Positions 42,711 to 57,699 of a stretch of DNA of 64,000 nt are shown here, in pieces (positions within the stretch are counted from its first letter, which is position 1; every line of letters starts with the position of its first letter). The stretch comes from Commensalibacter oyaizuii (GTDB lineage: Bacteria > Pseudomonadota > Alphaproteobacteria > Acetobacterales > Acetobacteraceae). Both the position numbers and the translations under genes were made by a program. The stretch lies in the NCBI RefSeq assembly GCF_029953265.1, contig NZ_JASBAO010000001.1:1-64000 (forward strand), in the 5' to 3' direction. The notes under the pieces are model-generated. The model was not told the DNA's origin and ran no database searches. It worked only from the letters and a program-made list of their open reading frames with translations.

Positions 42711-44054
42711 ATGACAAATTCTTCTTCTGTCCAACCTTTAACGGTTTCGTTTTTTCGATCAGTATTAAAGGGGAAAATAAGCGTTCCAGGGGATAAATCA
42801 ATCAGTCATCGTGCATTAATGTTTTCCGCATTAGCCATTGGGGAAAGCCATATTACAGGCTTATTGGAAGGGGAAGACGTTATGCAAACTGCTCAGGCGA
42901 TGCAGGCGATGGGGGCCAACCCAAAACGTATTGCACCTGGGGAATGGCGTGTTATTGGTCAAGGGATTGGCCAATTAAAGGAACCTCAAGATGTATTGAA
43001 TATGGGAAATTCTGGTACATCAGCACGATTATTAAGTGGCATTTTATCGAGTCACGGTTTTTTTAGTGTAATGACAGGGGATGGTAGTCTGCGTAAAAGA
43101 CCAATGGCACGTGTTACAACACCATTATCAGAAACAGGGGCCAAATTCTTGACCCGTGAAGGGGGACGCTTACCTATGGCGATTGTTGGAACAGCCAAGG
43201 CACACCCTGTTGGATACCGATTGCCTGTTGCGTCTGCGCAAGTAAAATCTGCTATTTTATTGGCTGGATTAAATGCAGACGGTATCACCTGGGTCGAAGA
43301 GCCCGTAGCAACGCGTGATCATACTGAAAACATGCTGCGTCATTTTGGGGTGGATGTAAGGATAGAAGATTTGGTCGATGGTGGAAAAAAGATTAGTTTA
43401 AAAGGCCCAGTGACCTTAAAAGCACGCAACATTCGCGTTCCCGGTGATCCTTCGTCTGCAACTTTTATGTTGGTTGCTGCTGCAATGATTTCAGGGTCAG
43501 AAATTTGTATAGAAGGGGTTGGATTAAATCCATTGAGAACAGGTGCCTTTGAAGTATTAAAGTGGATGGGGGCTGATCTTTGCATTGAGAACGAACATGT
43601 AGAAGGTGGAGAACCGATAGGAGACCTAGTTATAAAGGGTAGTAACTTAAAAGGTGTAGATGTTCCTGCTGATTGTGCACCATCAATGATTGATGAATAT
43701 CCTATTCTTTCTGTTGCGGCGGCTTATGCCGATGGAGTTACACGTTTCAGAGGTCTAGAAGAGTTGCGTGTAAAAGAAAGCGATCGTTTTACCAGTATCG
43801 TTGACATGTTGCGGGGCAATGGAGTTCAGGTTGATATTGATGGTGACGATTTAATAATTACTGGAACTAGGGGAAATATTCCTGGGGGTGGTGTTGTTGC
43901 AACGCATATGGATCATCGGTTAGCTATGAGTGCCTCTATTTTGGGACTGGTTGCCCAAAAAGGGATCAAAGTGGATGACATACGTTTCATAAGAACCAGT
44001 TTCCCTAACTACTTTCCTTTAATGAATCAATTGGGGGCAAAGTTCGACGTATGA
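42711..44054 (+). CDS. aroA: EPSP synthase (class II type)
   Basis: This is the shikimate-pathway enzyme joining shikimate-3-phosphate and PEP, with 447 residues. GDKSISHRALM, TGLLEGEDVMQTAQAMQAMGA and the late ELRVKESDR follow class II (Agrobacterium CP4-like) enzymes. In the PEP loop the residue equal to CP4 Ala100 is Gly102 (MGNSGTSAR), the common form. It overlaps cmk by ATGA (44051-44054), giving the operon aroA-cmk, with rpsA following. Confidence 0.94.
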   Translation: MTNSSSVQPLTVSFFRSVLKGKISVPGDKSISHRALMFSALAIGESHITGLLEGEDVMQTAQAMQAMGANPKRIAPGEWRVIGQGIGQLKEPQDVLNMGNSGTSARLLSGILSSHGFFSVMTGDGSLRKRPMARVTTPLSETGAKFLTREGGRLPMAIVGTAKAHPVGYRLPVASAQVKSAILLAGLNADGITWVEEPVATRDHTENMLRHFGVDVRIEDLVDGGKKISLKGPVTLKARNIRVPGDPSSATFMLVAAAMISGSEICIEGVGLNPLRTGAFEVLKWMGADLCIENEHVEGGEPIGDLVIKGSNLKGVDVPADCAPSMIDEYPILSVAAAYADGVTRFRGLEELRVKESDRFTSIVDMLRGNGVQVDIDGDDLIITGTRGNIPGGGVVATHMDHRLAMSASILGLVAQKGIKVDDIRFIRTSFPNYFPLMNQLGAKFDV

Positions 44055-44683
44055 GTAAACAATTAATTATTGCCATTGATGGTCCATCAGGGGTTGGAAA
44101 GGGTACACTGGCAAAAGCATTGTCAAAGAAGTTACATCTTCCTTATCTGGATACAGGATTATTATATCGTGCGGTCGGTCGTAAAATGTTGGATATGGGA
44201 TTATCACCTGATGATGAGGAATTGGTTAGGCAAGCGCAAAATCTTACCGAAGCAGATTGGAATCGAAATGATTTGCGCGTATCAGAAGTCGACAAAGCCG
44301 CAAGTTTAGTTGCAGCACGTCCAAAAATTCGTGCAGCTTTATTAGATATGCAGCGTCATTTTGCCACGACACAAGGGGTTGTCATGGATGGTCGGGATAT
44401 TGGCACGGTGATTTTGCCCAACGCAGATGTTAAGTTATTTATTACAGCATCCACTTATGTGCGTGCTAAACGACGTTGGTTACAATATACAAATGATGTT
44501 GACGCAATTGATAAAGACGAACAAATTAAACAGGTCGAAAAAGAGCTGGAGGCTAGGGATTTAGCGGACTCTTCGCGTGCTGTTGCACCGTTGCGACCTG
44601 CAGAAGATGCTAAAATTATTAATACGGATCACTTATCTGCTGATGCAGTTTTGCAAGAGGCTTTACGTTTGATTGGTGTGTGA
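44051..44683 (+). CDS. cmk: Cytidylate kinase
   Basis: This 210-residue enzyme phosphorylates CMP and dCMP with ATP. The P-loop is DGPSGVGKGTLAK; LDTGLLYRAVG (substrate binding) and DGRDIGTVI follow. It is translationally coupled to aroA by a 4-nt overlap. The order aroA-cmk-rpsA is conserved in alphaproteobacteria. Confidence 0.95.
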   Translation: MSKQLIIAIDGPSGVGKGTLAKALSKKLHLPYLDTGLLYRAVGRKMLDMGLSPDDEELVRQAQNLTEADWNRNDLRVSEVDKAASLVAARPKIRAALLDMQRHFATTQGVVMDGRDIGTVILPNADVKLFITASTYVRAKRRWLQYTNDVDAIDKDEQIKQVEKELEARDLADSSRAVAPLRPAEDAKIINTDHLSADAVLQEALRLIGV

Positions 44684-44965: not shown

Positions 44966-46693
44966 ATGGCTGCAGCCACCATACAAAATTCTCAAGACCA
45001 TTTTAACGGTGAAGATTTCGCAACACTTCTTGACGAAAGTTTAGGTCAAGATATCGGGTTCGAAGGGTCTGTTGTAACAGGTAAAATTGTTCGTTTAACG
45101 GATGATTATGCTATTGTTGATGTCGGTTTAAAAAGTGAAGGTCGCGTCCCTTTAAAAGAGTTCGCACCTATGGGCAGTAAAGCTGACGTTAAGCCTGGCG
45201 ATATGGTAGAGCTTTATATTGAGCGCTATGAAGATCGCGATGGATCTATTTTGCTTTCACGTGAAAAGGCACGTCGTGAAGAAGCATGGTCAGCGCTTGA
45301 AAAAGCTTTTGAAAGCAATCAACGCATCAATGGAACTATTTTTGGGCGCGTTAAAGGTGGATTTACCGTTGATTTAGGTGGGGCAATGGCGTTCTTGCCA
45401 GGTTCACAGGTTGATATTCGTCCTGTTCGTGATATCAATCCAATGATCGGTGTTGCGCAGCCTTTCCAAATCTTAAAGATGGATCGTGCTCGTGGTAACA
45501 TTGTTGTATCCCGTCGAGCAGTTCTTGAAGAAACTCGTGCCGAACAGCGTAGTGAGCTGATCCAAGGATTGAAAGAAGGCATGATTCTGGATGGTGTTGT
45601 TAAAAACATTACAGATTACGGTGCATTCGTCGATCTAGGTGGCGTTGACGGTTTGTTGCATGTTACTGATATTGCCTGGAAACGTGTCAATCATCCTTCT
45701 GAAGCTTTACAAATTGGTCAACCCGTTCGAGTCCAAGTTATCCGCTTTAATCCAGATACGCATCGTATTTCTTTGGGGATGAAGCAATTAGAGGCCGATC
45801 CTTGGGAAAATGTTGCTGCTAAATACCCTTCAGGTGCGCGTTTTACTGGTCGTGTAACCAATATCACAGATTACGGTGCTTTTGTTGAGTTGGAAGCTGG
45901 TGTTGAAGGATTGGTTCATATTTCTGAAATGTCTTGGACCAAGAAAAATGTTCACCCTGGCAAAATCGTTTCAACATCTCAAGAAGTTGACGTTGTTGTG
46001 TTAGATGTTGACAGCTCAAAACGCCGTATTTCATTAGGCTTGAAACAGGTTCAACCTAATCCTTGGGAACAATTTGCAGAAACACACAAAGTGGGTTCTG
46101 AAATTGAAGGTGAAATCCGTAATATCACAGAGTTTGGTCTATTTGTTGGTCTTTCTGCAGATATTGACGGTATGGTCCATATGTCTGATTTGTCATGGGA
46201 TGAAGCTGGCGAAGCAGCGATGGCAAATTACAAAAAAGGCGATGTGGTTAAAGCTAAGGTCCTTGATGTTGATGTTGAAAAAGAACGTATTTCATTGGGG
46301 ATTAAGCAACTACAAGAAGATCCAGCAGCAGACGTTTTATCTAAAGTAAATAAAGGCAGTATTGTTACTTGTATTGTTACAGGTATTCAGCAAAACGGTG
46401 TTGATGTTAGTGTAGATGACGTTCTAACTGGTTTTATCCGTCGTACGGAATTATCACGCGACAAAGCTGACCAACGTCCAGAACGCTTTTCTGTTGGTGA
46501 ACGCGTTGATGCGAAAGTGGTTTCTGTTGATCGTGCAGCGCGCCGTTTATCTTTGACTATTAAAGGTCGTGAAGTTGAAGAAGATAAGCAAGCAATTTCT
46601 GATTACGGTTCATCTGATAGTGGGGCATCTTTAGGTGATATCCTAGGTGCTGCTATTCGACGTAGAAACGAAAACGACACAGATATAGAGTAA
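44966..46693 (+). CDS. rpsA: 30S ribosomal protein S1
   Basis: This 575-residue mRNA-binding ribosomal protein consists of six successive S1 OB-fold domains from about residue 33 to 550, with the repeated motif ITDYGAFVDLGGVDGLLHVTD and relatives (for example TEFGLFVGLSADIDGMVHMSD). The last repeats are degenerate, as usual. Translation starts at ATG 44966 after a weak acagga site, in keeping with the S1-autoregulated leader known in other bacteria. A clear terminator follows. Confidence 0.96.
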   Translation: MAAATIQNSQDHFNGEDFATLLDESLGQDIGFEGSVVTGKIVRLTDDYAIVDVGLKSEGRVPLKEFAPMGSKADVKPGDMVELYIERYEDRDGSILLSREKARREEAWSALEKAFESNQRINGTIFGRVKGGFTVDLGGAMAFLPGSQVDIRPVRDINPMIGVAQPFQILKMDRARGNIVVSRRAVLEETRAEQRSELIQGLKEGMILDGVVKNITDYGAFVDLGGVDGLLHVTDIAWKRVNHPSEALQIGQPVRVQVIRFNPDTHRISLGMKQLEADPWENVAAKYPSGARFTGRVTNITDYGAFVELEAGVEGLVHISEMSWTKKNVHPGKIVSTSQEVDVVVLDVDSSKRRISLGLKQVQPNPWEQFAETHKVGSEIEGEIRNITEFGLFVGLSADIDGMVHMSDLSWDEAGEAAMANYKKGDVVKAKVLDVDVEKERISLGIKQLQEDPAADVLSKVNKGSIVTCIVTGIQQNGVDVSVDDVLTGFIRRTELSRDKADQRPERFSVGERVDAKVVSVDRAARRLSLTIKGREVEEDKQAISDYGSSDSGASLGDILGAAIRRRNENDTDIE

Positions 46694-46905: not shown

Positions 46906-49900
46906 ATGGCAGTTATTTATAATACAAACTATACTCATAATTCCAACTCTTATTTAACCCTCGCTGTGGGACGGGCTGCAAAAGAGCTATGGGGAGATGA
47001 GAACGTTATTGTTGCGGATAATATGAATCTATTATCGGTAGCAGCAACCTATGAACATGAAGTATTGATTTGTATTGATGGTCAAAGAACCGATTTTGAA
47101 TTAATGAAACGGTTACGCCCATGTTTCAAAACGATGATTTTTTGGGCATTTGAAGATCCATTCATGCTGGATTTTAACATCAATGTAACTGCTAATTTTG
47201 ATTATGTTTTTACAAATGATCCAAGTTGCGTTGATTCATATCAAGTTGAAGCATATTATCTGCCACTAGCTGGAAGTCAGTCTATTCATTATCGTGATGT
47301 TAAAAATACAGAAAATTTAGATTACGATATCTTTTTCGCAGGTACGATGTGGCCAAATCGCGTTGGGGTTTTAAGGCGTTTAATATTGGCGTTTCCAGAT
47401 GCGCGTTTTAAGTTAGTATGTCCTGGCAATGATTATCTACCACCATTGCCTAACGATTTAGTAGAACGTGTTCTGCCTAGACCTGTTAGCATTGAATCTT
47501 TTATAGATTTTGCTAATGCTAGTCAGGTAACATTAACCATGTTTCGTAATTACGCCAGTCATGGTGATGTAGGGCAGGCAACGGCGCCTGGACCAAGATT
47601 ATATGAATTAGGATTGTCTGGTACGGCGCAAGTTGTTGAATTGCCGTCAGAAATGGATGAAAAATATCTTAAAGAGTTGGAAGGTGTGTCAATCGCTCAT
47701 AATACAGAGGAAGTGATTGAAAATATTGCAAAGATTTTAAATACGAAGGGATTACGTAAAAAGCTTGCAACAGCAACACAACGTGCAGTGTTGGACAGGC
47801 ATTTGTACAAAAATCGTTTGCAACAAATAGCAGATATTACACAAGCTGATTTTAAGAAAAAAACAGAGAAGGCTATTGCTCAAATACCGTCTCAGCGTCA
47901 GGGAAAATTGCGGGTTTTATTCGTAACTCATTCCACAGTGCATGAGCATGTATGGGGTGGGATTGAAGTTTATCAACAAATTTTATCGACAACCATGGTA
48001 AAAGACGTTGAGTTCTTTTATTGGTTGCGTAGGCGTGGTGCATGTTATTTAACAGATGCTAATGGCAAGGAAATTGAACGTTTCGATATGCCAGATGTGG
48101 GATGGCTTGACTCAATGAACGATGCGGGTGAAGAAACTGCATTTTCAAGTGTGTTGAATCAATATGGTTTTGACATTGCGCATATCCAACATTTAGGACA
48201 TCATACTTTATCATTACCAATAATTGCTAAAGCTTGTGGTGTTGGGGTTGTATTTTCCTTTCATGACTTTTTAGCTGTATGTTCGCATTACAATTTGTTG
48301 AATTATGAACAACGTTATTGTCATATTGATAAATATGATGTTGGTGCTTGTGATATTTGTTTAAAAATTTCAGAAAAATTAGAGTTTGGTGTACAGCAGA
48401 CCCGTCGCTCTTTTGTTTCTAAATTAATGAAATATGTGGATGTCTGTCTATATGGCACCCAGCATTCTTATGATTTATCGCATAAAATTTACCCATTATT
48501 AAAGCATAAGAAAAATTACATTTTGGGAATTCCTTCTCCTGATACAACCATTCCTTTAAAACAGAAAGAGTATGAACCTTTAAACGGTAGAAAATTAAAA
48601 ATTGCCACTGTTGGTAATTTTATTCGTTCTAAGGGTGCAGATACCATTTTGTCAATTATCCAGTCAGCTAATGCTGATTTATATGAATTTCATATATTTG
48701 GGTATATGCAACCCGATTATGAAAATGTTTTAAAAGAAATGGATCGTAACAACGTGATATTGCACGGAGCATATGGCTTAGGAGAGGTAGCAGCATTGCA
48801 AGTTGCTGATGTTGCCTTGATATTATCCATATGGCCTGAGACTTATTGTATTTCATTATCAGAAGCATGGCAAAATGGATTGATCCCGATCGTGACAGAT
48901 GTTGGTGCATTGGGGGATCGTGTTCAAGATGGGATCAACGGATTTAAAGTGGAAATTGGTTCTGTAAATACGGTTATTAACCGTTTGGAATTAATCCGTT
49001 CCGATGAAAAACTGCGCGAACAGATCATGGGTAATATTACACCTGATTTATGGGTTGATGCTCCTGATTATGCAAAAGAGTTATTGGCTATTTACAAAGA
49101 TAACGCCCCTCATGATCGGCTTGGCGTCAGTAACTTAAAATGGGATATTGGTCGTCTTCACTATTTACCCCATTCATCGTGGAAAGAGCAGGCACCACCA
49201 AGACATATTTTTGATCCACCAACAGGAAATAGTTTAAATATTGAACTTCCACAGGTTGTTGATGATTGGGCCGTGGTCCAAGGGGCAAACTATTACCTTG
49301 ATGATATTTGTTATCACATCTTAAACGTTGATGATGAAAAGAAATTTAAAGGTGCAGATGAGTTTCATATTCGGGGATGGTTTATTTTCCCTGAAATGTC
49401 AAATGCTGGTACATTATATACGGTTTTGATTCATCAAGACAGTGATTTAACCATCTTTTTAGAATGTCAAAGAGAAAATCGCGCGGACGTTGCTTCAAGT
49501 TTTGCGAATGCTCCAATTCGTAATGGCTTTTCTGGTGTTTCTGCATTGAGGGGTAAATGGTGTGAAGGTCGCTTTAGAATTGGATTGATCAATATTGTTA
49601 ATGGTTCGGCAGCATTTCAATTAACAACCAACGAAATTGATGTTGAAGGCGGGAAAATTACTAAAATTCACAATATATTCCATGAAAATCAAATGATTTT
49701 AGATGATTTTAAACGGATCATTGAAAAAGATGGGATGATGCGTGGAGTTAAGCTGAATGAGTTTATTGAGAAGAATATTCATGAGCAGAGATTTGGTGAA
49801 TTAGAATATTGTATCGAATATTTGACTGGTTTTATACAAGACGATGAAATCGAAGATACAGTTGAATATGATAAAAGTGTCTTAAAAATTTCGGGATGGG

Positions 49901-50262
49901 CTTTTAATCGAACAAATTCAATGGCAGGGCGTATGTATATTGCTTTTGCTAATGAAAGTACGGGACATTGTTTTGTTGTCGGTACATCACGATTTATGCG
50001 CCATGAAACTGCTTCTATCTTTCAGGGGGCTCCTTTAAACAATGGTTTTGTAGTTGAATTGAACTTAAATCAAGGATGCTATTCCGTGGTAAATGGTCAA
50101 TATCACATGTATTTGGTTAATATTGTTCATAATGAATATAAAATTGCACAGACGAACATTGTTGTGAATATTAAAAATAATCAAGTAGAAGAAATTACAG
50201 ATGCAGTATTAACAGACGAAGTTATTAAAAAATGTCATCAGTTGATAGCAAGTAAATTTTAA
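46906..50262 (+). CDS. Multidomain glycosyltransferase: CgeB-like + GT4 + duplicated C-terminal domain
   Basis: This is a 1,118-residue cytoplasmic protein. Domain 1 (1-330) is CgeB/DUF3880-like: IFWAFEDPF, a YLPLAG segment and GPRLYELGLSGTAQVVE. Domain 2 (333-720) is a GT4 glycosyltransferase: VWGGIEVYQQ near the start, IATVGNFIRSKGADT, and the ExxE-type SLSEAWQNGLIPIVTDVGA. Domains 3 and 4 (about 790-915 and 985-1100) are beta-rich copies of each other, sharing IRGWFIF/ISGWAFN, APIRNGF/APLNNGF and LINIVNG/LVNIVHN. Domain 1 is paralogous to the separate gene at 55677. It probably builds a glycan on a protein or lipid, with targets unknown. First gene of a glycosyltransferase cluster. Confidence 0.85.
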   Translation: MAVIYNTNYTHNSNSYLTLAVGRAAKELWGDENVIVADNMNLLSVAATYEHEVLICIDGQRTDFELMKRLRPCFKTMIFWAFEDPFMLDFNINVTANFDYVFTNDPSCVDSYQVEAYYLPLAGSQSIHYRDVKNTENLDYDIFFAGTMWPNRVGVLRRLILAFPDARFKLVCPGNDYLPPLPNDLVERVLPRPVSIESFIDFANASQVTLTMFRNYASHGDVGQATAPGPRLYELGLSGTAQVVELPSEMDEKYLKELEGVSIAHNTEEVIENIAKILNTKGLRKKLATATQRAVLDRHLYKNRLQQIADITQADFKKKTEKAIAQIPSQRQGKLRVLFVTHSTVHEHVWGGIEVYQQILSTTMVKDVEFFYWLRRRGACYLTDANGKEIERFDMPDVGWLDSMNDAGEETAFSSVLNQYGFDIAHIQHLGHHTLSLPIIAKACGVGVVFSFHDFLAVCSHYNLLNYEQRYCHIDKYDVGACDICLKISEKLEFGVQQTRRSFVSKLMKYVDVCLYGTQHSYDLSHKIYPLLKHKKNYILGIPSPDTTIPLKQKEYEPLNGRKLKIATVGNFIRSKGADTILSIIQSANADLYEFHIFGYMQPDYENVLKEMDRNNVILHGAYGLGEVAALQVADVALILSIWPETYCISLSEAWQNGLIPIVTDVGALGDRVQDGINGFKVEIGSVNTVINRLELIRSDEKLREQIMGNITPDLWVDAPDYAKELLAIYKDNAPHDRLGVSNLKWDIGRLHYLPHSSWKEQAPPRHIFDPPTGNSLNIELPQVVDDWAVVQGANYYLDDICYHILNVDDEKKFKGADEFHIRGWFIFPEMSNAGTLYTVLIHQDSDLTIFLECQRENRADVASSFANAPIRNGFSGVSALRGKWCEGRFRIGLINIVNGSAAFQLTTNEIDVEGGKITKIHNIFHENQMILDDFKRIIEKDGMMRGVKLNEFIEKNIHEQRFGELEYCIEYLTGFIQDDEIEDTVEYDKSVLKISGWAFNRTNSMAGRMYIAFANESTGHCFVVGTSRFMRHETASIFQGAPLNNGFVVELNLNQGCYSVVNGQYHMYLVNIVHNEYKIAQTNIVVNIKNNQVEEITDAVLTDEVIKKCHQLIASKF

Positions 50263-50296: not shown

Positions 50297-50332
50297 TAAT
50301 ATTCTGGTATGGTTAACTATACCAGAATATTA
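50297..50332 (+). terminator. Perfect hairpin between the two giant glycosyltransferase genes
   Basis: A perfect 14-bp inverted repeat (50297-50310 with 50319-50332) with 8-nt loop lies 35 nt after the upstream stop. There is no T-run, so it may act as attenuator, mRNA-stability element or weak terminator. It covers the first possible ATG (50309) of the next gene, which argues for a later start. Confidence 0.6.
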
Positions 50333-50359
50333 ATATTCGTAATGAAATTGAGTAGTATA

Positions 50360-53300
50360 ATGCCAGATAAAAAAAAATCTCTTCCAAAATGGATTGAGTT
50401 TGACGAGCAGTGGTATCGATCTCGATATGTAGCCATTATTCCGATGATTGAAGATGTCTATGGTGGGGATATTTATAATTTTTATCAAAATAGAGGATGT
50501 AAAATTGGTCACTCTCCAAATATGTATTTTGATGAGAAGTGGTATTTACTAACTTATCCCAATGTCGCACAATTGGTTAAGGAAGGTGATTTTAAATCAG
50601 GTTTTGATCATTATTGCCAAGAAGGCTATAAAAATAATTCTCCTCATTGGTTATTTTCAGAAAAATTATATTGTGACAGATACGCTGAACGTAATGAACG
50701 TTTTGCCAGTTATAAAAATGGGTACGATCATTACTTATATGAGGGAGACTATTACCTCTATTCAGGAAGCCCTTTTTTTAATCCGAATTTGTATCTGTCA
50801 CAACAAAATAATTTTGAAGAAGCTTTGGAAGAGGGGGCTTTTCATTCCTACCTGAAAGAACTTCTACAGGGGAAAGCACCTTTATGGGTCAGTTGGTATT
50901 TTGATGAGAAATGGTATTTAGAAACATATCCTCAAGTTAAGTCTTTGATCAAGCAGAGACTTTATTTAAATGGATTACATCATTACTTAGCAAATGATAC
51001 CCCTACCGCATTTTCACCCCTCGCTGGTTTTTCAGAGGAATTTTATAATACCTCTTATACTGATGTCGCCTCTGCAGTTAATGCCAATAGTGATTTTTTA
51101 AATGGTTATTATCACTTTATCCTTCATGGATATAAAGAAGGACGACAACCCAATAGTCAGTTTGACATTGGTGCTTATGCACTACAAGACGAAGTAAAAA
51201 AGGCAATTGAAAGTGGTTTGTATCAGGATGCTTTTGAATACTGGTCAGCTATTCAGCACACCGATCTAGTCCAAAAATACGAATCTTATATGCGTAAAGA
51301 CGCTGGTGATACAGAGTCTGTCGAGGATGTTACGTCAGCTGCCACTGTATTAATAAATGAAGAAAATGTTAAAGAAAGAGAGGTTATTAAAAACGAGGGC
51401 ACAGATTTAGTTGATTCAAAGGAGATTTTACAATCTGAAGATTTACAAAGGGAACAAACTATCCAGTCAGCAGATAGTAAGGTAGAAAGCAAAGATGAGC
51501 AGGCTGACCTAAATGGAGATATTATTGTAGATGAGGAAGATGATCGTAGCCTATACGTTCCCAATGATCCCACCATAAATGATGTTGAATTTACTAGATC
51601 AAAAGTTGAGTTATTAAAGGATAGACCCTTATCAGTTAAAGATGACCATTTTATTGATACTCAAGATGATCAAAATATAGAAGAAGACCAAATTAACGAA
51701 CAAAAAGAAACAACGGTATCGTTAACTCCTTGGAAAATTTTCGATGAAGACTGGTATATTCGTAAATATACTGATGTAACATCAAAAATGAAGGCATTAG
51801 AGCTTGATAGTGTCGAGGAATATTATTTTTCTTTTGGTTGTCATGAAGGGCATTCGCCAAATCCTTTTTTTGATGAAAAATGGTACTTAAATACTTATCC
51901 TGATGTAAAGTTATTGGTTGAAAAGCATCAGTATAAATCAGGTTTTGATCACTATTGTAAACAAGGTTATAGAGACTATTCGCCACATTGGTTGTTCTCT
52001 GAAAGCTTCTATAAAAAGAAATACTCTAGCTTGACAGACGAGGTTTTATTTCAGCATGGTTTTGTTAATGGATATGACCATTATCTGAGAGCTGGTGACC
52101 TTGAAGGATTGAGTGGTAGCTTATTCTTTGATCCAAATTTTTTTATTGGACATTATTCAGGTCCCATATCACAAGGTGTCGGTTCATATAGTTATTATCT
52201 AAAACATATAGATGCTATTGATCCTTTAACTCAAACTTCTTGGTATTTTAATCCTCAATGGTATGTGCAACAATATTCTGATGTAAAAGAAGAGGTCCAG
52301 GCAAAGAAATTTGTTAATCCATTACATCATTACTTGACGAATGAACGACCATTTGAATACGCACCATCAATGTGGTTTGACGAAAATTTCTATGCTGCAG
52401 AGTATCACGACGCATTAAAGCATGAACGATTGTCAGAAACTTATAGAAATGGATATGATCATTTCATTCATGAAGGTATTGAATTACTGTGGATGCCATC
52501 TCCATTTGTTGATTTAGCTGCGTATTCATTACGTAAGGAAGTTCAACAGGATATTAAAACTGGTCTATATCCCAATTCGTATGTTCATTGGTTAGCACAT
52601 CACCAAGATGCTGATCATATAGACGAGGTAATATCGCAAGAAAAACAAGAATATGTCATTGTAGACGATATTCCTGAAGATACGTACCATTGTCAAGGGG
52701 CAATTTGGGCGCAGTTTGACGAGGATTGGTACGTTCGTCGGTATCCAGATACAAACGAGAAAATGGAAATTTGTGGCCTAGAAGACGTTCAGCAATATTA
52801 TGAGCAAGTAGGTGCATTTTTGGGTCACTCACCAAATGCTTATTTTGATGAAACTTGGTATGTTCAATTTTACACAGATGTACAAAAGGCAATTAAAAGA
52901 GGAGCTTTTAAAACAGGTTTTGAGCATTACTGTAAAGTAGGATACAAAAAACATCGCCCCCATTGGTTATTTTCTGAACAATATTATTTACAGCAAAATC
53001 CAAATTTTGCTTATGAAATTAAATCTTCTGATACGTTTATTAATGCTTATGATCATTACTTAAAAAAAGGCGATGCGTTACGACGTTCTGGATCTTTGTA
53101 TTTTGATCCTTTAGTCTATGAACGCGTTTGCTATGGTCAGGGGAAAGTTGAGAAAACTTTTTTTCCATATAGGAATTATTTACTTAATATTACAGATGCA
53201 GATCGTGATGCCGAAATATCACTTTATTTTGACCCTGCTTGGTACATTGCAGAATACCCAGAAGTAATGGGATTAATCAAGCAGGGTGACGTTGTTTGTG

Positions 53301-55660
53301 CTTTGCATCACTATTTGACAAATGATTCTCCGACTTTGTTTAATCCTTCGCCTTGGTTTTCAGAACGTTTTTATGTAAAGGCTAATCCTGACCTAGCAGA
53401 GGCGATATCAGATAGTATTGATGCAACATTTCGCAATGGATATCAGCATTTTTTGCTGCATGGTTGTTTTGAATGTAGACAACCTCATGCTGATATTGAC
53501 TTAAAGACTTATTTCTTATCTGGGCATGTGCGTGAAGATATTGAAAATAGATTGTATCGTGATGCCTTTGCTCACTGGGTTTTTAATAAAAGATTAGAGC
53601 AATGGTTAGAAAAACAACCAGAAGATTCTCATTATCGTTTAAGTGATAAGACAATTCAATCGCGGGAGTATTTTCGTAAAAAAGCACGATATATGCTGCC
53701 AACGGTTGCACATCAAAAGCTTGATTTTTCATACGAAGGTAAACCTGAGATCAGTGTAATTATGTTATTACGTAATCAGTTGCCTGTCAGTTTGACAGCG
53801 CTTGCATCATTACGTGCTAATTATGCTGGAAAAATCCAATTATTGATAGGTGATAATCACTCGTCCGACGATACACGTTATATTCAAAATTCATTAATCG
53901 GCGCGCAGATTTTACGCTTCGCGTATAATATTGGGTATGGTAAAGCCTGTAATTATTTGCTTGAACATGTTCAAGCACCTATTACAATCTTTTTAAACAA
54001 TGATATTTATCTATATCCCAAAGCTATTGAAACGTTGTGTCAGTACTTATTATCGGCTGCTGATATTGGTGCTGTGGGGGGGAAAATTATTCATCCCGAT
54101 GGAAATTTACAAGAGGCAGGATCGATCATATGGCGTGACGGTACAACGACAGGGTATATGAGGGGTGATGATCCTTTACGTCCAGAGGCAAATTTTGTTA
54201 GAAGTGTTGATTATTGTTCTACAGCCATGATGGCCGTAAAAACTATTTTATTACAACAACTAAAGGGTTTTTCACCAGTCTATTATCCTGCTTATTTTGA
54301 GGATACTGATTTATGTGTGCGCATTCTTAAAGCTGGATATCGGGTTATTTATCATCCTGATGCTGTTGTTGAACATATGGAATATGCCTCTAGTGATCCT
54401 ATTGTATCCAGTGGGCTTATTCGTCGTAATCATCAGAAATTTGTCAAGGAACATAGTGATTTTTTACGGTTTCAACATCCTCGTCACTCTGATAATATTA
54501 TTATTGCGCGTGAACGTGTCGATAGGGAAAAACGAATTTTATTCATTGAAGATCGTGTGCCTTTAAAACGGTTGGGGTCGGGGTACGTTCGATCAAATGA
54601 TATCGTGCATCAAATGGCCAAGTTAGGATATAAGGTTACAGTTTATCCGATTAATTCTTATTATGCACATTTGTATCAGATTTATTCAGATTTGCCTGAA
54701 ACGGTCGAGGTTCTTTTCGATCGTACAATAGACGACATAAGAGCATTCTTTTTAGAACGTGCAGGGTATTACGATATCGTTTGGATTGGCCGTACTCATA
54801 ATCTTCACCGTATCCTTCCAATGATGGGAGAGGCAAATCGCTATTTACCACAAGATTGTCTGGTATTGGATACTGAAGTTATCGCAGCCCCAAGAACACA
54901 ATTAAGGGCAAATATTTTAGGGTTGGAGATGAATGAAACGTTAGAGGATGCCCTAACTGTGGAATTATCGTGTGCGCGTCATTGTCAAACAATCATCACC
55001 GTCAATAAAATTGATCAAGAATATGCCAAACAAGCTGGGTTTGATAATGTCAATATACTGGGGCACATGATGTCTGTAAGGGCTACACCTAAAAATTGGG
55101 GTGAACGAAATGGGTTATTATTTGTCGGTGCATTGCACGATGATTTATCGCCTAATTTTGATAGTTTGCAATGGTTTATGAGTGCCGTTCTACCTATATT
55201 AGTTGAAAAAATGGAAGAAGCATTTTTCATAACTATTGCGGGTTATGTTCATCCCTCTGTAGATATGTCCGTTTTTGCGAAATATCCTCAGGTGAAATTA
55301 TTAGGACCTGTGGAAGATCTAACCCATCTTTATAATGATCATCGCGTATATATTGCCCCCACTCGTTTTGCAGGGGGGATTCCGTACAAACTTCACGAGG
55401 CGGCATCATTTGGGATACCGATTGTTGCAGCTGAATTGTTGGTTAATCAATTGGGATGGAAAGATGATCAGGATATTTTAGCAGGTTCAATTGATAATCC
55501 AGAATTTTTTGCATCACAAATCATTCGCCTTTATCAAGAGCAAAAGTTATGGGATAAGATTCGCAGTCATGCGTTGTCCCGTATTGAAAAAGAATGTAAT
55601 GAACATCAATTCAGAACAAATCTTCAAAATATTTTAACAAACGTTACTTCTCATAAATAG
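50360..55660 (+). CDS. Giant repeat-bearing glycosyltransferase (3 super-repeats + GT2 + GT4-like)
   Basis: This protein has about 1,766 residues from the ATG at 50360; in-frame ATGs at 50342 and 50309 exist, the latter inside a hairpin. Three homologous blocks (50390-51250, 51731-52602, 52706-53583), each near 290 residues, contain six to seven units of the type FDE-WY...YPDV...GF-HY...G. Blocks 1 and 2 are separated by an acidic, low-complexity linker (about 51260-51720). A GT2 domain follows (53745-54470; PEISVIMLLRNQ, GDNHSSDDT, metal motif LNNDIYL), then a GT4-like domain (54530-55640; RILFIEDRVP...GPVEDL...PTRFAGGIPYKLHEAASFGIPIVAA). Similar FD-WYL-YPDV repeats occur in large alphaproteobacterial glycosyltransferases; their role is unknown, perhaps acceptor binding. 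Confidence 0.85.
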   Translation: MPDKKKSLPKWIEFDEQWYRSRYVAIIPMIEDVYGGDIYNFYQNRGCKIGHSPNMYFDEKWYLLTYPNVAQLVKEGDFKSGFDHYCQEGYKNNSPHWLFSEKLYCDRYAERNERFASYKNGYDHYLYEGDYYLYSGSPFFNPNLYLSQQNNFEEALEEGAFHSYLKELLQGKAPLWVSWYFDEKWYLETYPQVKSLIKQRLYLNGLHHYLANDTPTAFSPLAGFSEEFYNTSYTDVASAVNANSDFLNGYYHFILHGYKEGRQPNSQFDIGAYALQDEVKKAIESGLYQDAFEYWSAIQHTDLVQKYESYMRKDAGDTESVEDVTSAATVLINEENVKEREVIKNEGTDLVDSKEILQSEDLQREQTIQSADSKVESKDEQADLNGDIIVDEEDDRSLYVPNDPTINDVEFTRSKVELLKDRPLSVKDDHFIDTQDDQNIEEDQINEQKETTVSLTPWKIFDEDWYIRKYTDVTSKMKALELDSVEEYYFSFGCHEGHSPNPFFDEKWYLNTYPDVKLLVEKHQYKSGFDHYCKQGYRDYSPHWLFSESFYKKKYSSLTDEVLFQHGFVNGYDHYLRAGDLEGLSGSLFFDPNFFIGHYSGPISQGVGSYSYYLKHIDAIDPLTQTSWYFNPQWYVQQYSDVKEEVQAKKFVNPLHHYLTNERPFEYAPSMWFDENFYAAEYHDALKHERLSETYRNGYDHFIHEGIELLWMPSPFVDLAAYSLRKEVQQDIKTGLYPNSYVHWLAHHQDADHIDEVISQEKQEYVIVDDIPEDTYHCQGAIWAQFDEDWYVRRYPDTNEKMEICGLEDVQQYYEQVGAFLGHSPNAYFDETWYVQFYTDVQKAIKRGAFKTGFEHYCKVGYKKHRPHWLFSEQYYLQQNPNFAYEIKSSDTFINAYDHYLKKGDALRRSGSLYFDPLVYERVCYGQGKVEKTFFPYRNYLLNITDADRDAEISLYFDPAWYIAEYPEVMGLIKQGDVVCALHHYLTNDSPTLFNPSPWFSERFYVKANPDLAEAISDSIDATFRNGYQHFLLHGCFECRQPHADIDLKTYFLSGHVREDIENRLYRDAFAHWVFNKRLEQWLEKQPEDSHYRLSDKTIQSREYFRKKARYMLPTVAHQKLDFSYEGKPEISVIMLLRNQLPVSLTALASLRANYAGKIQLLIGDNHSSDDTRYIQNSLIGAQILRFAYNIGYGKACNYLLEHVQAPITIFLNNDIYLYPKAIETLCQYLLSAADIGAVGGKIIHPDGNLQEAGSIIWRDGTTTGYMRGDDPLRPEANFVRSVDYCSTAMMAVKTILLQQLKGFSPVYYPAYFEDTDLCVRILKAGYRVIYHPDAVVEHMEYASSDPIVSSGLIRRNHQKFVKEHSDFLRFQHPRHSDNIIIARERVDREKRILFIEDRVPLKRLGSGYVRSNDIVHQMAKLGYKVTVYPINSYYAHLYQIYSDLPETVEVLFDRTIDDIRAFFLERAGYYDIVWIGRTHNLHRILPMMGEANRYLPQDCLVLDTEVIAAPRTQLRANILGLEMNETLEDALTVELSCARHCQTIITVNKIDQEYAKQAGFDNVNILGHMMSVRATPKNWGERNGLLFVGALHDDLSPNFDSLQWFMSAVLPILVEKMEEAFFITIAGYVHPSVDMSVFAKYPQVKLLGPVEDLTHLYNDHRVYIAPTRFAGGIPYKLHEAASFGIPIVAAELLVNQLGWKDDQDILAGSIDNPEFFASQIIRLYQEQKLWDKIRSHALSRIEKECNEHQFRTNLQNILTNVTSHK

Positions 55661-55676
55661 TAAATAGGCAAATTAA

Positions 55677-56771
55677 ATGGCAGTCAGAGCAAGAAAGAAA
55701 AAAGAAACAAAAACAACGAGTGATAATGTTGTTTCAAAAGAAAGCGTAGTTAGTAGTGATGTTCCCCGTCCAGCCACTAGCAAAACCGCAATCGTCAAGC
55801 CTATTAGTGGTAAAGTAATGGTTTGCAGTGGTGGGCGTTATGAATCCCAAGCAAATGCACAAATTCGTGAAGCTATCATGTCTGGCTGGGAAAGCGTTTT
55901 TGGAGAAGGAAATGTAATTTCAACCAACATCGCTGGTGCAGCCGCCGCAATTGAATATATTAAACCAAAAATTGTATTTTCAATTGGGTCGTATTTACCT
56001 GAAAGTACGTATTTTGGAGAGGTTTGTCAAAAGGCCAAGAATATTGGTGCCATTACTATTTTTTGGGCAACCGAAGATCCATACGAGCAAGATGCAAATT
56101 ATCGTATTATAGATGATTTTGATGTTGTGTTTTCTTGTGATCGTTGGGGAACCAATTTTTACGATCATCCGCACGCTTATTTCTTGCCCTTGGCTGCGTG
56201 TGAAAAACTGCATTATCGTCCACTAGACGAGACATTGGAAAAAAATATTGATGTTATGTTCTGTGGTGTGGCATTTGGCAGTCGTAAAGATGTTATGCGC
56301 AGTATAAGACCAGCGTTGTCTGATTTGAATATTAGAATTGTGGGGCCAGGATGGGGAGAGTTCGGAATTGGTTTTTCTGATGCTCGTATTGAAAAAGATC
56401 AGTTAATTGAGCTTTACCAGCGTTCAAAGATTGTATTGAATCTAGGGCGCAGTTTACATTTTGAAAATAAACGTTTTGTGGTTATGCCTTCTAATCCAGG
56501 TCCTAGAACATTTGAGGCAGCGGCAGCAGGGGCTATGCAATTATTTCATGAAGATAACTATGCTATTCATGATTTCTACGAGCGTGATGAGCTTCCTGTT
56601 TTTTCAACACGTTATGATTTTCAAAAATTGTTGGATAAATATCTAAATGATCCTGAACTGATCTTGCAAACGGCTAAGAAGGCACAAGCACGTACATTAA
56701 AAGATCATACCTACAGCAAACGTATCGAAACTGTCATTAGTATTTTACAAAGGGACGGTTTTTTGAAGTAA
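55677..56771 (+). CDS. CgeB-family glycosyltransferase
   Basis: This 364-residue protein starts with a basic, Ser/Thr-rich tail (1-45), then a CgeB/DUF3880-type GT-B fold: VMVCSGGRYESQANAQ, IFWATEDPYEQDANY, YFLPLAACEKLHYRP, DVMFCGVAFGSRKDVM and NPGPRTFEAAAAGAMQLF. It is a paralogue of domain 1 in the protein at 46906-50262 (IFWA-EDP, LPLA, HYR shared). It lies 16 nt downstream of the giant glycosyltransferase in the same operon and ends at a terminator. The sugar and acceptor are unknown. Confidence 0.85.
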   Translation: MAVRARKKKETKTTSDNVVSKESVVSSDVPRPATSKTAIVKPISGKVMVCSGGRYESQANAQIREAIMSGWESVFGEGNVISTNIAGAAAAIEYIKPKIVFSIGSYLPESTYFGEVCQKAKNIGAITIFWATEDPYEQDANYRIIDDFDVVFSCDRWGTNFYDHPHAYFLPLAACEKLHYRPLDETLEKNIDVMFCGVAFGSRKDVMRSIRPALSDLNIRIVGPGWGEFGIGFSDARIEKDQLIELYQRSKIVLNLGRSLHFENKRFVVMPSNPGPRTFEAAAAGAMQLFHEDNYAIHDFYERDELPVFSTRYDFQKLLDKYLNDPELILQTAKKAQARTLKDHTYSKRIETVISILQRDGFLK

Positions 56772-56827: not shown

Positions 56828-56922
56828 GATTCTTAAAAATAACCTCACGAAAAATTGAATTGATTAGGAGAATCAGCTAAAATCGGTTAAAGATGCCGCA
56901 TCAAGGAATAGGATGTGATTCG

Positions 56923-57699
56923 ATGTTGACTGATTCTATTGTAAACGTTAAAGACCCAAACCAGCATATTACAGAGTATTTAAATTCTTTTATTTATGCT
57001 TCAGATTGTCCAAATTATGCCGTTTTAGTAACTGGTAAATGCGGGTATGATAAAAGTCATTATATCGATCATTTTATCAATAATTTTTGCACTGAGAAAA
57101 CAATACTGCAAACTCCCATAATGAAGAATTGTACGCGGTTGGCATCCTTGCAAGCGATGGCCTCAATCAGCCATATTGTACCAGCACAAGAATATATGGG
57201 TCAGGTAGTTAAAGACTCTCAAAAAAGATTTATTAAAATAAACTTAAGTGGATTGAAGTGTATTGCAGAATTAAAAGATGCTATATTTTCACAGCAGTTT
57301 CCTGCATTTAACTCAAAAATTAGCAAAACAGTTTCTTCTTTTTTCAGAAAGATTTCTGATCGGGTAAAAAATTATCTTTCTTTATTTCAGATACCGTTTT
57401 CTGCGTTGCAAAAGAAAGATCCTTTTTATTTGGCATCCCATGTTGAGACAATCTTTATATTTGACAATATTGATAAAGCAAATATTCCTTTGAAAGATCT
57501 TATTGAATATATTAATAATTTTATTACAAAGGAAAAGAAAAAAGTTATTTTAGTTGCTGATGAGCAAGAATTATTAAAAAAAGAAAATGCGAAATTTCAT
57601 GATTTTTTCAGAGATGACAGCAGCTATGATGCTATAATATATACAATATTTAAAGAAAATCGGATAAAAAAGACTTTGGAGGTTCAATCTTATAGCTAA
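56923..57699 (+). CDS. Small KAP-like P-loop protein with altered Walker A
   Basis: This is a 258-residue protein. I chose ATG 56923 because agga lies 9 nt before it; ATG 56893 has no usable site. The order of elements recalls KAP/STAND NTPases: a P-loop in VLVTGKCGYDKSHYI (residues 38-45, where the usual Gly before Lys is Asp43), a helical middle (about 110-165), a Walker B-like IFIFDNID with Asp181 and Asp184, and a following strand VILVADEQEL. It is much shorter than normal KAP proteins and has no membrane insert. It may be inactive as an ATPase. Single gene next to the glycosyltransferase operon; a defence or membrane-glycan role is speculation. Confidence 0.6.
   Translation: MLTDSIVNVKDPNQHITEYLNSFIYASDCPNYAVLVTGKCGYDKSHYIDHFINNFCTEKTILQTPIMKNCTRLASLQAMASISHIVPAQEYMGQVVKDSQKRFIKINLSGLKCIAELKDAIFSQQFPAFNSKISKTVSSFFRKISDRVKNYLSLFQIPFSALQKKDPFYLASHVETIFIFDNIDKANIPLKDLIEYINNFITKEKKKVILVADEQELLKKENAKFHDFFRDDSSYDAIIYTIFKENRIKKTLEVQSYS

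Follow-up and report, generated by a model that had tools for sequence, protein, structure and literature searches.

Three copies of a helical repeat domain ahead of GT2 and GT4 domains in a giant glycosyltransferase of Commensalibacter

The window analysed here, i.e., the whole stretch of 64,000 nucleotides from Commensalibacter oyaizuii (G+C 37.1%, in a genome of 2.41 Mb), contains an ORF, P1, in which one domain occurs three times ahead of two glycosyltransferase domains. This domain, hereafter the block, is an array of six and a half units; it is a fixed helical domain of Acetobacteraceae, normally present once per chain, so that the novelty of P1 lies in the copy number of the block and not in the array itself. 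The triplicate form is confined to the genus Commensalibacter in the sample studied, and it has been retained there.

Results

Architecture of P1 and of its locus

The layout of P1 and of the genes around it is given in Table 1. The limits of the blocks obtained by HMM (residues 24-317, 471-766 and 795-1095) are near the coordinates of an earlier reading made from the letters alone (the sequence-only reading), and the fusion of the blocks to GT2 and GT4-like domains, proposed in that reading, is confirmed by Pfam scan (PF00535, 5.5e-12; PF13692, 4.6e-15). The true start of P1 is probably an internal ATG near 50342 or 50360, since the nine genus orthologues match from query residue 8-17 (own sequence aside).

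Table 1. Features of P1 and of the surrounding locus (positions in the window)
Feature	Position	Strand	Remarks
aroA	42711-44054		syntenic anchor, with cmk and rpsA
cmk	44051-44683		syntenic anchor, with aroA and rpsA
rpsA (ribosomal protein S1)	44966-46693	+	six S1 stretches; syntenic anchor of the locus
P2, conserved upstream partner	46906-50262	+	two GT-B-type glycosyltransferase regions (Pfam); C-terminal region without Pfam match
P1, giant bimodular glycosyltransferase ORF	50309-55660	+	1783 aa; B1-linker-B2-linker-B3-GT2-GT4
Block B1	50378-51259	+	units u1 50399, u2 50528, u3 50654, u4 50777, u5 50900, u6 51029, then half unit
B1-B2 linker	51260-51724	+	Asp+Glu 28% in the window copy
Block B2	51719-52606	+	units u1 51740, u2 51869, u3 51995, u4 52127, u5 52247, u6 52376, then half unit
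B2-B3 linker	52607-52696	+	25-32 aa across nine genus sequences
Block B3, GT-proximal	52691-53593	+	units u1 52715, u2 52844, u3 52970, u4 53102, u5 53228, u6 53357, then half unit
GT2 (GT-A) domain	53729-54508	+	NND motif at residue 1230, EDTD at 1331
GT4 (GT-B) domain	54509-55657	+	Pfam and structure match
P4, conserved downstream partner	55677-56771	+	Glyco_trans_1_2 glycosyltransferase

Towards its C-terminus P2 contains two stretches that are similar to each other and have a GWxF-like motif; on inspection by eye they look like the N-terminal parts of the block proteins of genome G021 (L044, L129). At 56893-57699 the window encodes a KAP-like P-loop protein of 268 residues; a similar protein in genome G006 has 795 residues, thus the window copy may be shortened.

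The blocks are copies of a whole array

The blocks of P1 (about 295 residues each) align end to end with pairwise identities of 39-42%. Identical columns amount to 114 of 295 for B1-B2 (local score 603, against a maximum of 81 for 300 shuffles), 124 of 297 for B1-B3 (618 against 71) and 115 of 292 for B2-B3 (634 against 73). Units taken at equal positions of different blocks have a mean score of 90.1 (n=18), compared with 31.3 for units at unequal positions of different blocks (n=90) and 31.3 for pairs within a block (n=45). Unit 4 is weakly kept between blocks (scores 15, 31 and 35), and the best pair of unequal position scored 90. The block alignments, the unit scores and the trees described below bear out the sequence-only reading on three points: (i) the blocks align along their full length; (ii) the order of units is common to all blocks, unit 4 being weak; (iii) duplication acted on the whole array and not on single units.

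Distribution of the block

A profile built from 37 blocks detects the block at E<=1e-25 in 144 of the 299 Acetobacteraceae genomes sampled, i.e., in 50 of 102 genera. The single-block enzymes have about 1000 residues, and 20 further proteins of 967-1190 aa contain one block each. Among the matches listed, all block ORFs outside the genus have at most 1279 aa; the one read in genome G071 has one block.

No ORF with two full-length blocks was found outside the genus among the matches listed and the 28 genomes re-searched; the family-wide search scored up to seven candidates per genome at E<=1e-25, with about 150 matches listed, and may therefore have overlooked a second block that has diverged. 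In the re-search all candidates of the 28 genomes (sets of 22 and 7, with G306 in both; G003 and G005 belong to the genus) were scored at 1e-10, and genomes whose second match was absent from the family-wide list were included. Adjacent but separate block genes occur in G069 (contig 43) and G279 (contig 144). The earlier view that a triplicate array is unusual is upheld, with three copies in all nine genus genomes and in no ORF of the outside sample. As for the idea of an array triplicated within one gene, the three copies are real; the array was not assembled in P1, being a family-wide domain that is normally single.

In a sample of the class (385 genomes) the block is carried by 15 genomes at E<=1e-15; in the 11 of them outside Acetobacteraceae it is partial or low-scoring, and full-length strong matches are restricted to Acetobacteraceae. 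The unit of about 42 residues has a wider range (22 of 299 phylum genomes at E<=1e-4, including three of the window's genus), being present in other proteins of Alphaproteobacteria and of a few further members of the phylum; this supports the sequence-only reading, which placed single repeats in large alphaproteobacterial glycosyltransferases. A contig search with the whole P1 protein returned a single relative.

Free-standing forms were also seen. P0006 is a stand-alone protein of 172 residues made of two units and a Lys-rich tail (L040:3003-3521; in the window genome, contig 1 near 1473502); its gene adjoins a folD-like gene (named by eye), and short unit-bearing ORFs of similar size are found in other genomes of the genus and of the family. 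Genome G021 has at its rpsA locus a block-only protein of 472 residues (L129:6701-8116), which has a single block and lacks any glycosyltransferase domain recognised by Pfam; its P1, P2 and P4 genes are located elsewhere in the genome (L044).

Age and place of the triplication

Three blocks are found in one ORF (1668-1791 aa) in nine of nine genus genomes, seven of them from the family-wide search and two (G003 and G005) from the re-search. Trees were calculated with eight of these nine genomes and three selections of rows: 37 rows (without L039, L051 and L056, which duplicate L004, L008 and L022, without matches below 150 bits and without G008), 54 rows (without L121, which is the same record as L033, Limobrevibacterium gyesilva, and without L049 and L046, long-branched or partial) and 43 rows (12 distant rows omitted, L129 added). 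In all three, the copies of B1, of B2 and of B3 fall into separate and strongly supported clades. Since these position-specific clades run across genomes, the triplication predates the radiation of the genus.

B1 and B2 are sisters in one of the three trees, that of 43 rows (support 96/93); the 37- and 54-row trees resolve no order among B1, B2 and B3. The 24 genus blocks form a single group with moderate support (80/84, 43-row tree); in the 54-row tree the long-branched block of G021 fell among them. There were probably two duplication steps, in which the ancestor of B1 and B2 would have split from B3, and B1 later from B2. B3 is the positional equivalent of the single block of other genera.

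The order rpsA-P2-P1-P4 is kept in the window and in the other eight genus genomes. Of the 23 loci read outside the genus, 8 (L041, L043, L045, L050, L133, L134, L135 and L136) show this order too, with a single-block enzyme as P1, L135 and L136 keeping it with broken genes; in the other 15 loci, several of which lie on short contigs, rpsA, P2 and P4 were not all found beside the enzyme. Because this order is common to the genus and to single-block loci, the triplication, as judged from gene order, happened in place, at the locus of the single-block orthologues.

Some copies of the locus look damaged. In G156 (L136) P2 is split into five ORFs and P1 into two, and the locus looks decayed; in G110 (L135) P1 consists of two ORFs meeting near the GT2/GT4 border. 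In G005 (L140) the best P2 match covers 616 residues, as against about 1115-1120 in the other genus loci, and P2 may be interrupted.

Retention and divergence of the copies

All three blocks are retained under constraint. A set of 13 single blocks has 54 nearly invariant columns in common; of the 432 cells that these define for each block position in eight genus genomes, B1 keeps 406, B2 393 and B3 405 (91-94%). Between members of the genus, pairwise identities average 0.51 for B1, 0.57 for B2 and 0.60 for B3, compared with 0.77 for GT2 and 0.69 for GT4. The dN/dS values (Nei-Gojobori), which are rough in the more distant pairs with high synonymous distances, are 0.04-0.28 for blocks (four pairs), 0.44-0.83 for the B1-B2 linker (computable in three pairs) and 0.14-1.30 for the B2-B3 linker (three pairs). 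Among the nine genus sequences the B1-B2 linker is 58-175 aa long and has a mean pairwise identity of 0.19.

At the level of residues the copies have diverged little in kind, since 8 of the 72 columns conserved in all three block classes differ between classes. Fixed residues specific to one class number 16 in B3 (of which five fall within the final 25 residues, on the GT2 side) and 6 each in B1 and B2. The aromatic content of blocks is 19-21%, vs. 10% for the GT domains, and their net charge is negative (-12 to -15).

Structure prediction and database searches

The AlphaFold model of one block is confident (pLDDT 94.8, pTM 0.89) and nearly all helical, each unit comprising about three short helices. 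The model of B3+GT2+GT4 has a pLDDT of 90.2 and a pTM of 0.82; the latter value suggests that B3 is packed in a defined arrangement with GT2 and GT4.

Foldseek gave no match of the block model to PDB at E<=10 and 13 matches to BFVD, none of them at or below 0.001; VIA-align gave no alignment for it. The best BFVD matches (E 0.09-0.2, non-significant) are giant-virus FkbM and glycosyltransferase proteins, possibly with related units. For the long model, the matches listed by VIA-align concern the GT4 part only, i.e., GT-B enzymes such as sucrose-phosphate synthase 6kih_A (Z 31.2, rmsd 3.3, 352 aligned). Foldseek matches of this model include GalNAc-T2 structures, which are GT-A enzymes, and 8qoy (Cps3D), a long but loose match (735 columns, TMq 0.26, rmsd 16.2) that does not demonstrate a resemblance of the block to a TPR domain.

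A known repeat family was rejected: the best matches in Pfam (0.0093) and NCBIfam (0.0059) concern one member each and are chance-like. In PHROGs, phrog_36254 (function not assigned) matches 3 of 37 blocks at 4e-05 and phrog_3496 one block at 7.1e-04. The PDB sequence search gave no match of the block at E<=10 and four chance-like matches of the unit (0.9 or worse). In the open-access literature searched, titles and opening parts of abstracts contain no account of this domain or of its triplication, and the literal string FDxxWYL has 0 occurrences in the papers listed. As modelled, the block is a widespread domain predicted with confidence, which has no convincing Pfam or NCBIfam model and no solved relative in the libraries searched; that neither block nor unit convincingly matches a Pfam, NCBIfam or PDB family leaves the sequence-only reading standing on this point.

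Discussion

Comparison with known enzymes

The closest group is that of the single-block GT2-GT4 enzymes of Acetobacteraceae (e.g., L041, L043 and L045), orthologous to P1 by locus. Like them, P1 combines the block with a GT2 and then a GT4 domain in a single chain, and with part of them (8 of the 23 outside loci) it shares the rpsA-P2-P1-P4 locus; it differs by three blocks instead of one, and for this reason P1 is a variant of the group.

The best analogy for the block is the N-terminal TPR domain of Cps3D and Cps7D, the TagF-like capsule polymerases of Actinobacillus pleuropneumoniae. According to the portion of the published account consulted (PMC11666461): (i) these proteins of about 1140-1280 aa have an N-terminal TPR domain and then two GT modules, the length of the repeat domain differing between Cps3D and Cps7D; (ii) the TPR domain supports processive elongation, and active TPR truncations of the system give shorter and less disperse products; (iii) the longer TPR of monomeric Cps7D occupies the place of parts of the TPRs of two protomers in dimeric Cps3D. 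P1 likewise has an N-terminal helical repeat domain before two glycosyltransferase-type modules in one chain. However, the repeats are TPRs in Cps3D/Cps7D and units of about 42 residues with some three short helices in P1, whose Pfam scans contain no TPR family and whose block has no Foldseek match in PDB at E<=10; both modules are GT-B in TagF-like polymerases, whereas P1 has a GT-A and a GT-B module (one Pfam GT2 and one GT4); finally, the domain is triplicated in P1.

Two other systems are more distant. Bcs3 of Haemophilus influenzae b is described, in the part of the source consulted (PMC10299916), as a multi-domain polymerase with a non-catalytic polymer-binding domain; this domain is SH3b-like, unlike the helical repeat of P1. 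The rulers WbdD and WbbB also tie a non-catalytic extended domain to glycan assembly, with a coiled coil between termination and polymerase modules according to the sections consulted (PMC11231755). The layout of P1 differs, since in the models of the block and of B3+GT2+GT4 the blocks consist of arrayed short helices and precede the two catalytic domains. What is known is an accessory repeat domain on a multi-domain glycosyltransferase; what is new is the triplication of a domain not described in Pfam and NCBIfam as searched.

Possible role of the blocks

By analogy with Cps3D and Cps7D, the block may hold the acceptor or the growing glycan, extra copies raising avidity, processivity or chain retention; this is the reading we favour, with a confidence that stays short of even. 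We infer that P1 would be a cytosolic two-domain glycosyltransferase (GT-A and GT-B) for a cell-surface glycan, its N-terminal helical repeat domain helping to keep the acceptor or the elongating chain close to the active sites. Ancestrally the enzyme would have had one block, in the B3 position, packed in a defined way with the GT domains; two copies would have been added ahead of it in the genus and then kept, acting as additional tethered grips, with a higher avidity leading to more processivity or chain retention.

The confident helical models, the aromatic content of the blocks relative to the GT domains, the invariant cells kept by each copy, the low dN/dS of blocks relative to the linker, and the grouping of rpsA, P2, P1 and P4 in the genus and in 8 of 23 outside loci are consistent with this role, and few class-specific changes are expected if one binding surface is used repeatedly. 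Against it, the aromatics may form the hydrophobic core of the repeat, the blocks carry a net negative charge, the fold searches (PDB, BFVD and VIA-align) connect the block with no known glycan-binding domain, the ten neighbouring window genes scanned include no polysaccharide polymerase or export system, and in most outside loci (several contigs being short) P2 and P4 could not be located beside the enzyme. A bolder version is held with low confidence: the block would be the founder of an undescribed helical repeat fold binding glycan or nascent polymer, its triplication in cis in one genus of insect-gut symbionts giving a multivalent, more processive (or covalently oligomerised) enzyme, with an independent copy in trans, the block-only protein, in another genus.

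The main rival, to which a minor share of the probability is given, is a protein scaffold, in which the blocks dock partners (P2, P4 or the two-unit P0006) and three blocks recruit several of them. TPR-like solenoids commonly bind proteins; the gene order of the locus, constant in the genus and recurrent outside it, and the existence of free-standing unit proteins (P0006 and the block-only protein of G021) would fit such a role. However, P2 and P4 also adjoin single-block enzymes, thus the number of partners does not explain three blocks. Moreover, the blocks show little class-specific fixed change, and G087 has neither P2 nor P4 in the 19 kb read around its enzyme.

A covalent oligomer is rather unlikely. 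Single-block enzymes would self-associate through the block, and the copies in cis would replace the blocks of neighbouring subunits; the difference between the TPRs of Cps7D and Cps3D, as given in the portion of the account consulted (PMC11666461), suggests such a covalent substitute for oligomerisation in P1. The short B2-B3 linker, the longer tether of B1 and the excess of class-specific fixed residues in B3, partly in its last 25 residues, are in line with it.

Neutral expansion, i.e., extra copies kept without function, appears improbable. B1 is indeed the fastest-evolving block and the locus looks decayed in the small-genome species G156; nevertheless, the three copies are intact in nine of nine genomes, and the invariant cells kept in the eight examined and the dN/dS of blocks argue against it. 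Very improbable is a rigid molecular ruler (the sequence-only reading had considered a ruler-like solenoid), in which an array of 18 units would set glycan length by its physical length: block number is constant in the genus, but the B1-B2 linker is acidic, variable in length and barely conserved, and known O-antigen rulers are, in the sections of the source consulted, coiled coils placed between the modules for polymerisation and termination (PMC11231755). Flagellin glycosylation is hardly credible: many block-carrying relatives also have flagellin, but Flagellin_N (PF00669) has no match in the nine genus genomes or in G016, G021, G061, G062 and G077, which also carry the block. For the genus this reading is taken to be refuted, barring a flagellin not covered by PF00669.

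Significance

At a known locus, the copy number of a whole accessory domain has risen from one to three, and the new state is fixed across a genus. The single-block orthologues are ready controls, so that the tuning of a glycosyltransferase by accessory repeat domains becomes directly testable. P1 probably helps to build surface sugars, and this lasting change of copy number may affect the way in which the product is held by the enzyme.
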